Assembly (NCBI RefSeq): GCF_009741925.1
Contig: NZ_WPCC01000024.1
Location: 1 to 50,620, forward strand
Length of the DNA stretch: 50,620 bases
From: Natronomonas sp. CBA1123
GTDB taxonomy: Archaea > Halobacteriota > Halobacteria > Halobacteriales > Haloarculaceae
Direction of reading: 5' to 3'
Below the pieces are notes generated by a model. It worked only from the letters and a program-made list of their open reading frames with translations, searched no databases and was not told the DNA's origin. How positions within the stretch are numbered: position 1 is the stretch's first letter; each line of letters begins with the position of its first letter. The position numbers and the translations under genes were made by a program. Shown here in pieces: positions 31,807 to 34,900 of this stretch.

Positions 31807-32454
31807 ATGATACCGCTGTATCACGACTTTACGGACGAAACGGTGCTCGTCGTCGGCGGCGGGCCGGTCGGGGCCCGGAAGGCCAGACGGTTCGCCCGCG
31901 AGGCACGCGTCGTCGTCGTCAGCCCCGAGTTCCCGGCCGACGACTACGGCGGGGCCGAACACGTGCGAGCGGCGCCGACCGCCGAGGACGTGTCGGCGTG
32001 GGTCGACCGAGTCGACCCGGCGCTCGTGGTGGCGGCGACAGACGACGAGGCGGTCAACGACGCCGTCGAGGCGGCCGCACGGGAGCGGTCGGTGCTCCTC
32101 AACCGCGCCGACCGCTCCGGGGACCGCGACGTGGGCAGCGTGGTCGTCCCAGCGACGGTTCGGGACGGCGACGTGGTCGTCTCTATCTCGACCAGTGGAG
32201 CGAGTCCCGCGCTGTCGAAGGAACTCCGAACGCGCATCCAATCGGACATCGACGGCGCGGGTGAGTTGGCGAGACTGACCGGCGAGGTGCGCGAGGAACT
32301 GAAACAACGGGGTATCGACGCGAGTGCTCGTCGGGACGCGGTCCGAGCCGTCGTGCAATCGCCGCGTGTTTGGAAGGTTTTAGGTACAGGCGGGGCTAAG
32401 CCACGACGAACAGTAGACGCCGTCGTCGAATCGGCGTTGGGTGACAAGGAGTGA
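31807..32454 (+). CDS. Precorrin-2 dehydrogenase (siroheme synthase N-terminal domain)
   Basis: A 215-residue protein with a Rossmann NAD-binding motif VLVVGGGPVGARKARRF (residues 13-29) followed by the SirC/CysG-N fold (VVAATDDEAVNDAVEAAARE, and GSVVVPATVRDGDVVVSIST). It oxidises precorrin-2 to sirohydrochlorin. A ferrochelatase function, present in some homologues, is not excluded. It lies 9 bases after the AhbA/B gene, and its last four bases (GTGA) contain the hemA start, so the three genes form an operon. Confidence 0.88.
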   Translation: MIPLYHDFTDETVLVVGGGPVGARKARRFAREARVVVVSPEFPADDYGGAEHVRAAPTAEDVSAWVDRVDPALVVAATDDEAVNDAVEAAARERSVLLNRADRSGDRDVGSVVVPATVRDGDVVVSISTSGASPALSKELRTRIQSDIDGAGELARLTGEVREELKQRGIDASARRDAVRAVVQSPRVWKVLGTGGAKPRRTVDAVVESALGDKE

Positions 32455-33803
32455 ACATCGGAACCGGAATCATCGCTGGGGTCAGCGTCTCATACAGCCA
32501 CGCGAGCGTCGAGCAAATCGAAGCCGCCTGCGAGACCTCCGAACGCGAGGCCGTCGAGGCGCTTCTGAAGCGTCCCGGCGTCTCGGAGGCGTTCGTCCTC
32601 CAGACGTGCAATCGCGCGGAGGCGTACGTCGTCGCCGACGAGGCCGAAACCGCCCGCGAGGCGCTCGACGAGTACCTCGTCGGCGTCGACCCGGATGCGA
32701 CCCGCGAGTTGGGCCACGAAGAGAGTCTCCGACACCTGATGCGGGTCGCCTGTGGCCTCGAATCGCTCGTCATCGGCGAAGACCAGATTATCGGACAGGT
32801 GCGTGAAGCCTATGAGGCCGCTCGGGGCGCCGGCGGCATCGGGTCGACGCTCGACGATGCCGTCCTCAAGGCGCTCCACGTCGGCGAGCGCGCCCGCAGC
32901 GAGACCGCAATCAACGAGGGCGTCGTCTCGCTGGGGTCGGCCGCCGTCGAACTCGCCGAAAGCGAGCGGGACATCGCCGACGCGACCGCGCTCGTCGTCG
33001 GTGCCGGGAAGATGGCGACGCTGGCGGCCCGCGCACTCGACGACGCCGTCGACCGCGTCGTCGTCGCCAACAGGACGCTCCCACACGCCGAACACATCGT
33101 CGAGGAACTCGACACCGATGCCGCCGCCGTCGGTCTCGCTGCCCTCCCGATTGCCGTCGAAGAGGCCGACATCGTCGTCACGGCGACGGGCAGCGACAAC
33201 CACGTCCTCGACAGCGATACGCTCGAGGAGGTCGGCGAGACGCTCATCATCGACATCGCCCAGCCGCGTGACGTGACGCCGGCGGCGCGAACCGTCGATG
33301 AGGTCGAACTCCACGACCTCGATTCGCTGCAGTCGGTCACCGACGAGACCCGGAGTCAGCGGCGCGAAGCCGCCGAAACCGTCGAGGCGATGATAGACGA
33401 GGAGTTCGACCACCTTATCGCCCAGTACAAGCGCAAGCGCGCCGACCAGGTCATCGGGGCGATGTACGAGGGCGCCGAACGCATCAAGGCCCGTGAACTC
33501 CGAACCGCCGTCTCGAAACTCGAAGCCGAATCAGACGACGGCCTCACCGACGAACAGCAGGAAATCCTCGAATCGATGGCCGACGCGCTCGTCGGACAGA
33601 TTCTCTCCGCGCCGACACAGAGCCTCCGGGACGCCGCCGAGAACGACGACTGGACGACCATCAACACCGCCCTCCAGTTGTTCGGCCCCGGGCTGAAACC
33701 CGAACCCGCCGAGGTTCCGGAGGCCCCCGACGGGATTCCCGACGAGATGCGGCGACAGATGCCCGACGCCGTCCTAGAGCAGTTGACGGTCGACGACGAC
33801 TAG
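32451..33803 (+). CDS. hemA: Glutamyl-tRNA reductase
   Basis: A 450-residue reductase that converts glutamyl-tRNA to glutamate-1-semialdehyde with NADPH, the first step of tetrapyrrole synthesis. The catalytic cysteine is in LQTCNRAEAYV (about residue 52). NADPH-binding motif LVVGAGKMATLAAR and VVANRTLPHAE are present, as is the SLVIGEDQIIGQVREAY motif. The C-terminal dimerisation helices are normal. It starts with GTG at 32451, inside the stop of the previous gene. Confidence 0.94.
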   Translation: MNIGTGIIAGVSVSYSHASVEQIEAACETSEREAVEALLKRPGVSEAFVLQTCNRAEAYVVADEAETAREALDEYLVGVDPDATRELGHEESLRHLMRVACGLESLVIGEDQIIGQVREAYEAARGAGGIGSTLDDAVLKALHVGERARSETAINEGVVSLGSAAVELAESERDIADATALVVGAGKMATLAARALDDAVDRVVVANRTLPHAEHIVEELDTDAAAVGLAALPIAVEEADIVVTATGSDNHVLDSDTLEEVGETLIIDIAQPRDVTPAARTVDEVELHDLDSLQSVTDETRSQRREAAETVEAMIDEEFDHLIAQYKRKRADQVIGAMYEGAERIKARELRTAVSKLEAESDDGLTDEQQEILESMADALVGQILSAPTQSLRDAAENDDWTTINTALQLFGPGLKPEPAEVPEAPDGIPDEMRRQMPDAVLEQLTVDDD

Positions 33804-33805
33804 AA

Positions 33806-34167
33806 ACACCCACTTTTTACTCCCTCGGGTGTCCTCGCTCGCTTCGCTCGCTACGGGCACCACTCAGTCGCAAAAACTTGGGGAAAAACGACCCGACGCC
33901 TCGCTACGCTCGGCGTCGGCGAACCGCTCGCTCCCTATGGTCGCTCACGGATGCTGGACGCACAGGACTGGGTAGTGTACGCCGAGCGAAGCGAGGCGTT
34001 TCCCCGATGCCGAACGCCGAAGGCGTGAGGCATCGGTAGCGCGCACGGACTGACGCGAGCGAAGCGAGCGGAAGGAGTACGTGCTATTTTTCCCCAAGTT
34101 TTTGCCGAGAACCGGTGTCGCGCGCCGTTCGGCGCGCGACCCGCGTTCTCGTGTAAAAAGTGGGTGT
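33806..34167. repeat. Structured inverted-repeat element between hemA and the RNase H-like gene
   Basis: A 362-base non-coding region with several perfect or near-perfect inverted repeats. Outermost, ACACCCACTTTTTAC (33806-33820) is matched by its complement at 34153-34167 (15/15). Next, GCAAAAACTTGGGGAAAAA (33870-33888) is matched at 34087-34105 (19/19). Inside these, 33897-33915 matches 33980-33998 (18/19). Hairpins lie at 34004-34036 (CCGATGCC/GGCATCGG) and 34117-34140 (10-bp stem, loop GTTC), with CGAGAAC/GTTCTCG (34106-34112, 34145-34151) enclosing the latter. The 15-mer GCTCGCTTCGCTCGC (33837-33851) recurs inverted at 34055-34069. The outer arms start just after the stops of both converging genes, so at least they may act as terminators. 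No credible ORF. Confidence 0.85.
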
Positions 34168-34181
34168 AGAAAGCTGGGTTC

Positions 34182-34847
34182 TTAATCGCTAGCCGACCCG
34201 CCGCCGACGAAGTTGTTGGAGCGGTCGCGGTCGGCACGGGACGGCGGCGGGTACCGGTCGTCGTCGGGCGCTCGCCAGCGCTCGTCGCGCGGGAGGACAC
34301 AGCGGTCGGGTTCGCGGTTGACGTGGGCGTACTGGTCGGGTGTGTTCGCGAGCGGATGAGCGGGGTTGTCGCCGCTGTCGATGCGGGCGGCACGGAGTTC
34401 GCCGAAGCCGGCGACACGGGCGCGGATGCCCCGCCAGTGGGTGGCGCTTTCGGTGGGAACGCGGAACGGATGCGGTGGCCGGCCGTCGGGGCCCCGCGTG
34501 GCGAGCGTCGCTCGGTTGACGTTCGCCGCGAGGTCGTCGTGGTCGATGAGGACACCCACGCGGGCGTTTCGGGGCGCTCGTGCCGCCAACACGTCGAGAC
34601 CGAGATGGAGGGCCCGATACTCGGCGACGTTGTTGTCCGGTACCGCGTCGGGCACCGAGAGGCGAGCGACACGCTCGCCGTCGCGCGTTTCGATGACGAC
34701 ACCCAACCCGCCAGCACCGTCCGCGCGGTAGGACCCGTCGGTAGCGAGGTAGAAGTCTCGGCGATGGGTGCGCGGCGGATGCGCGATGTGGGGGGTCGGT
34801 GAGTCGTCGAACAGGTTCCGCAATACCGGCCGGCAGTGCGCGGCCAT
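34182..34847 (-). CDS. RNase H-like protein
   Basis: A 221-residue protein with an RNase HI-type fold. Metal-binding acidic positions are visible in FYLATDGSYRADGAGG (Asp), NNVAEYRALHLGL (Glu) and VLIDHDDLAANVN (Asp). The usual fourth position corresponds to SGDNPAHPLAN. It continues with a C-terminal tail of about 50 residues rich in Arg/Asp. It would cut RNA in RNA:DNA hybrids, in the cytoplasm, but the family also includes diverged nucleases. The ATG at 34847 is the conserved start, with a TATA-like TTTATG about 20-25 bases upstream. An earlier in-frame start to 34895 is not supported. Confidence 0.78.
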   Translation of the reverse strand: MAAHCRPVLRNLFDDSPTPHIAHPPRTHRRDFYLATDGSYRADGAGGLGVVIETRDGERVARLSVPDAVPDNNVAEYRALHLGLDVLAARAPRNARVGVLIDHDDLAANVNRATLATRGPDGRPPHPFRVPTESATHWRGIRARVAGFGELRAARIDSGDNPAHPLANTPDQYAHVNREPDRCVLPRDERWRAPDDDRYPPPSRADRDRSNNFVGGGSASD

Positions 34848-34900
34848 ACAGGAGTTTCGCCCCGCACAGTACATAAATCCACGGGCGCCCAGCACCGATG

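Follow-up and report, generated by a model that had tools for sequence, protein, structure and literature searches.

The region between hemA and an RNase H-like gene in the window, a 50,620-nucleotide stretch of DNA from Natronomonas sp. CBA1123, is firmly read as two cassettes lying tail to tail in opposite orientation (positions 33804-34167) and not as one element. Both cassettes, A and B, belong to a single dispersed non-coding family; with moderate confidence, we favour the reading that it is a mobile 3'-end cassette predicted to act as a two-way T-tract terminator. The identity of the cassettes and their position at stop codons are firm, and transcription probably ends at them. A search of the open-access literature found no description of the family, and it apparently represents a repeat family of salt-loving archaea undescribed so far. 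It reveals the nature of one kind of "structured intergenic element", for which annotation would otherwise suggest an RNA or a transposon.

Two cassettes between hemA and the RNase H-like gene

The pairings named in the original prediction were recovered in the window: the outer perfect repeat (33806-33820 with 34153-34167; 15 of 15 positions paired), the inner perfect repeat (33870-33888 with 34087-34105; 19 of 19), the pair with one mismatch, which we read as 33896-33916 with 33979-33999 (20 of 21), the crossing pair, read as 33836-33851 with 34055-34070 (16 of 16), and the further hairpins at 34004-34036 and around 34106-34151. Both strands also folded far better than dinucleotide shuffles (z of -10.1 and -10.8), none of 100 shuffles being as good.

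When the region was compared with its own genome by BLAST, 33 matches were obtained, many of them of half length, together with one nearly full-length copy (C20:15198-15550, 85% identical). Comparison of these copies identified the half, and not the whole 362 bases, as the repeat unit. The perfect repeats, the outer one of 15 bp and the inner one of 19 bp, arise because box 1 and box 2 of the two cassettes face each other (Table 1). A single long-range structure over all 362 bases was rejected because neither the one-mismatch pair nor the crossing pair is conserved in the C20 copy, in which only one of the two arms has changed. Each of their arms is part of a separate local hairpin made up of words that recur, CTCGCTTCGCTCG among them; judged by sequence comparison, these local hairpins gave rise by chance to the one-mismatch 19-bp pair and the crossing 15/16-mer.

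The earlier suggestion of a matched pair of terminators comes close: each gene end has its own cassette with a T5 run a few nucleotides past the stop codon, but the pair consists of two whole cassettes and not of repeat arms. Similarly, a non-autonomous mobile element is borne out by homologous copies, empty sites and covariation, albeit as two cassettes and not a single element; the homologous copies and the covariation were observations on which the original prediction had been staked. A free non-coding RNA may be made but is not needed to explain the region. No Rfam family matched up to an E value of 1 across 33600-34400, and cassette A folded in the mRNA sense resembled shuffled sequence (z 0.03; template strand z -2.6). 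A phage origin was rejected, there being no matches among 50,697 phage records; plasmid records gave two partial matches only, both haloarchaeal. In cassette B, box 1 starts 14 nt past the RNase H-like stop codon, with its CCCAC 17 nt past.

Table 1. Host genes and parts of cassettes A and B in the window
Feature	Position	Strand	Remark
hemA (glutamyl-tRNA reductase)	32451..33803	+	host gene of cassette A; stop codon 33801-33803
Cassette A, whole	33804..33955	+	directly behind hemA stop codon; ends judged from the family
Box 1 of A	33806..33820	+	ACACCCACTTTTTAC, holds T5 run
Hairpin 1 of A	33821..33869	+	sequence variable, palindromic in all copies
Box 2 of A	33870..33888	+	GCAAAAACTTGGGGAAAAA; two T5 runs on opposite strand
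Hairpin 2 of A	33893..33919	+	includes first arm of the non-conserved one-mismatch 19-bp pair
Hairpin 3 of A	33921..33955	+	conserved flanks GAACCG...CGGATGCT; distal end of cassette A
Spacer separating tails of A and B	33956..33973	.	by difference
Cassette B, whole	33974..34167	-	distal limit by eye, from diverged hairpin 3
Diverged hairpin 3 of B	33979..33999	-	
Extra hairpin of B	34004..34036	-	
Hairpin 2 of B	34036..34086	-	TAGCACG...CGCGCTA
Box 2 of B	34087..34105	-	
Hairpin 1 of B	34106..34152	-	
Box 1 of B	34153..34167	-	with T5 run
RNase H-like ORF	34182..34895	-	host gene of cassette B; name from the original prediction

A haloarchaeal family placed behind stop codons

Across the family, cassettes are about 115-300 bp long and begin behind a stop codon with box 1, (A)ACACCCACTTTTT[A/G/C]C, which contains the T5 run. 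This is followed in order by hairpin 1, GCAAAAACNTGGGGAAAAA (box 2, A5...A5), hairpin 2, GTGAACCG, hairpin 3 and CGGATGCT, and no conserved ORF was found within the cassettes. The genome of strain CBA1123 has about 17 copies: in its 3.45 Mb, box 1 (CCCACTTTTTNC) occurs 17 times and box 2 19 times, against one and zero for the reversed controls. The two-box pattern was present in 62 of 392 genomes and 19 of 95 genera of the order, and the reversed pattern in none. In a scan of 84,980 species with one genome each, all hits among the loci listed were haloarchaeal, from Natronomonas, Haloarcula, Halorientalis, Halosimplex, Halobacterium, Halococcus and other genera. Presence within Natronomonas is patchy, and several species of the genus show no cassettes.

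The arms of the hairpins covary, since swapping 3' halves between copies lowered the arm score from 19.8 to 13.4 (sd 0.4) in hairpin 1 and from 12.5 to 10.3 (sd 0.4) in hairpin 3. Sister subfamilies show complementary replacement of box arms (CCCA/TGGG, CGAA/TTCG, GAAC/GTTC and CGAC/GTCG) with T5 and A5 kept, in a pattern that itself required T5/A5; most of the T5/A5 counts likewise rest on search patterns requiring them. The constancy of T5:A5 amid stretches free to covary suggests a sequence-specific role. In the complete genome G001, such sister subfamilies use the boxes CGAACTTTTT/AAAAACTTCG and AACCTTTTT/AAAAACGTT and share a GATGAAAAAGACAC-type box 2 tail (L358, L363, L372-L374, L381, L383-L384, L386-L387 and L392). 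Another, with T4 boxes (CGACCTTTTAC...GGTAAAAGGTCGATCAAAATC), lies behind the thermosome stop codon at L279 and L280, in another family of the order. In the B cassettes of L026 from 2946 (G000:C14:95245) and L017 from 2944 (G000:C11:40943), hairpin 1 holds two more hairpins, GTGGCGG..CCGCCAC and TGCGGGC..GCCCGCA, suggestive of a further small repeat having entered its palindrome.

Box 1 lies no more than 12 nt from the stop codon of an ORF read in the same sense in 118 of 156 distinct two-box copies, and in 116 of those 118 the distance is 0-6 nt; some copies of the family have no near stop codon. A less biased test of position used hairpin 3 alone as bait in G001, which did not ask for T5/A5: nearly all elements started with a T-run box directly behind a stop codon, box and stop lying mostly 110-260 nt upstream of hairpin 3. 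The idea that the cassette brings its own stop codon was rejected because, at several sites, empty relatives have the same stop. Thermosome subunits are over-represented among the upstream proteins (15 of 101), where aRF1, EF-G-domain proteins, ETF alpha, PhoU, SOR/SNZ and acyl-CoA dehydrogenases also recur. Genes of these kinds are generally highly expressed.

Turnover between species and relation to known repeats

That the family turns over between sister species is well supported by comparison with the gene ends of G009 and G015, which are about 90-99% identical to those of strain CBA1123. The thermosome cassette of this strain is missing in both relatives, another cassette is shared with G015 and absent from G009, and further cassettes are missing from one or both. 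Several gene ends carry A or B depending on the species; in the relatives, B adjoins hemA and A adjoins the RNase H-like gene at the hemA junction itself, the reverse of the window. Comparison with two clean empty sites shows about 280 bp in place of roughly 20-45 bp, with no target duplication visible at either. In genus g9, that of G027, the thermosome end is filled in some species and empty in others.

At single sites, whole gene ends may have been imported by interspecies recombination; but the variety of host genes requires gain at new genes. As to how cassettes move, we infer deletion-coupled insertion as the route by which a stop codon would acquire one, and cassettes would replace one another at gene ends. 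Tandem cassettes in the same orientation stand behind one gene at L216 (4329-4640, the pair about 160 bp apart) and at L039 (1185-3072), with no ORF in between. At L018 (G000:C41:94539-94989), about 0.45 kb separates the convergent genes around an A/B pair, a distance that is 1.3 kb in G009 and about 6.5 kb in G015, so the A/B pair may mark a deletion or rearrangement.

Integron attC sites recall the cassette in having a palindrome at the stop codon and a variable loop. We file the cassette as a variant akin to the small mobile repeats of Haloquadratum and to bacterial REPs, and as a member of neither family. The SMR-A repeats of Haloquadratum walsbyi are, like the cassettes, haloarchaeal and palindromic, about 110 bp long and without a transposase, present in tens of copies, with a strong target preference and no known mobiliser (PMC3119063). 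They cause no target duplication and are too short to encode a transposase, both of which hold for the cassettes at 115-300 bp, and deletion-coupled insertions have also been described for them (PMC3119063). However, SMR-A have prominent inverted ends (PMC3119063) and single cassettes have none, and SMR-A enter the palindromes of IS605-type elements (PMC3119063), whereas cassettes adjoin the stop codons of ordinary genes. Bacterial REP/BIME elements are also extragenic palindromes, sometimes in head-to-head pairs (PMC2817692, PMC12306157), and some lie within 15 nt of a stop codon (PMC12306157). In contrast to the cassette, with its three hairpins, 115-300 bp and far fewer copies, REPs are single palindromes of 20-40 bp that are linked to RAYT transposases (PMC2817692, PMC12306157).

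A MITE was rejected because single cassettes, which run from (A)ACACCCAC to CGGATGCT, have ends that are not inverted copies, and because the two clean empty sites show no target duplication; the 15-bp inverted repeat of the window spans two cassettes and does not form the ends of one. A REP/RAYT mobiliser was likewise rejected, since comparison of carriers with Y1_Tnp did not reveal a RAYT (Y1) link: Y1 transposases do not track carriers, G010 and G012 (88 and 82% complete) having no Y1_Tnp and non-carriers having several.

A predicted two-way transcription boundary and its alternatives

On the favoured reading, a polymerase leaving the gene would meet a T5 run that usually begins 6-11 nt past the stop codon, and one arriving from the opposite direction would meet two T5 runs set behind hairpins 3 and 2. 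Termination by archaeal polymerase and aCPSF1 takes place at T tracts of this kind, so that the gene would have a very short 3' UTR, compared with a median of 97 nt in Haloferax (PMC7237163), and would be shielded from antisense transcription. In Haloferax volcanii, T5C terminates with 95% efficiency in vivo (PMC7237163), and aCPSF1 binds U-tracts, two of them better than one (PMC8716108). Behind the gene, the sense strand of the cassette carries a run of at least five T, the feature of an archaeal T-tract terminator, and genes that lack a cassette seldom have T5 within 60 nt past their stop. The likeness to the Haloferax T5C terminator lies in this five-T sense-strand run downstream of the gene; unlike that terminator (PMC7237163), the cassette has its T5 ahead of conserved hairpins and, in mirror image on the opposite strand, two T5 runs. 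A bacterial-type hairpin terminator does not fit, the sense T5 preceding hairpin 1; the order of hairpin then T5 is present only in the opposite direction (hairpin 2 then T5).

Several points count against the terminator reading. In the sense direction the hairpins come after T5 and would be superfluous for a T-tract terminator, cassette B of the window stands 17 nt off its stop codon, and not every copy has a stop nearby. Furthermore, a study in E. coli (PMC4824070) indicates that a stop-proximal terminator may be impeded by the ribosome. The conflicting strand signals described below, the origin of most T5/A5 counts in patterns that required these runs, and the possible import of gene ends at single sites also weigh against it. 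If the terminator reading is true, many haloarchaea would have exchangeable 3'-end modules that fix where transcription stops, including at prominent genes like the thermosome, and close species differing in cassettes would constitute a natural experiment on archaeal termination.

The main rival, which we consider somewhat unlikely, is a small mobile repeat of REP or SMR type that is purely selfish: termination would be incidental, the hairpins would serve as recognition structures on single-stranded template-strand DNA, and the place behind the stop would be the target or the one site where insertion does no harm. It agrees with turnover among sister species, with deletion-coupled insertion that leaves no target duplication, with the existence of tandem copies and with the patchy distribution inside the genus. 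It also agrees with two strand signals. Of 114 complete elements, 102 have the better fold on the template and not the sense strand with RNA parameters, and 98 with DNA parameters, and tandem 2x2 mismatches on the sense strand are TC/TC rather than GA/GA by 90 to 1 in hairpin 1 (kinship ignored) and by 33 to 0 in hairpin 3, which therefore places tandem GA on the template strand or on an antisense RNA. However, cassette A folded as DNA was no better than shuffles on either strand, and neither a mobiliser nor tracking of carriers by Y1 transposases was found. The constancy of T5/A5 between covarying arms, together with the bias towards housekeeping genes, suggests use by the host.

By analogy with a proposal for stop-proximal REPs in E. 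coli, the cassette might instead be an RNA element of the mRNA 3' end, whose read-through hairpins would make the message more stable or affect the ribosome during termination. The location 0-6 nt past the stop agrees with this, REPs lying within 15 nt of a stop codon make ribosomes stall according to earlier work cited in PMC12306157, and on the sense strand of hairpin 1 G.T pairs outnumber A.C pairs by 72 to 30 (kinship ignored). We nevertheless regard it as quite improbable, given that the sense strand is the poorer folder in those 102 of 114 elements, that cassette A in sense resembles shuffles and that T5 ahead of the hairpins should halt most transcripts. The strand signals conflict, mismatches and fold energy pointing to the template and G.T pairs to the sense strand. 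An antisense small RNA, in which the bottom strand would be transcribed from the CGGATGCT end via hairpins 3 and 2 and stop at the T5 runs, would account for a template fold of three clean hairpins with U5 after hairpin 2. The lack of an Rfam match and of conservation just past CGGATGCT speaks against such an RNA, and we hold it to be highly improbable.

The near-exact position of a moving repeat at stop codons calls for an explanation in its own right, one that can be tested directly. Active targeting of insertion to stop codons, for example via single-stranded template DNA or via the transcription or translation machinery at the gene end, appears unlikely to us, and to our knowledge such a target logic is established for no mobile repeat. 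Carrier genes (L144-L253) end in TAA in 50 of 78 cases (64%), compared with 15% of their neighbours, which mostly end in TGA (279 of 464); this excess may stem from expression level or from target choice. Directly behind the thermosome stop codon, another hairpin array (TAAGCGAGGTT...) was observed at L256, L257, L268, L283, L323 and L335, with GA and not TC on the sense strand, and the end of the thermosome gene resembles a hotspot shared by several families of repeats.
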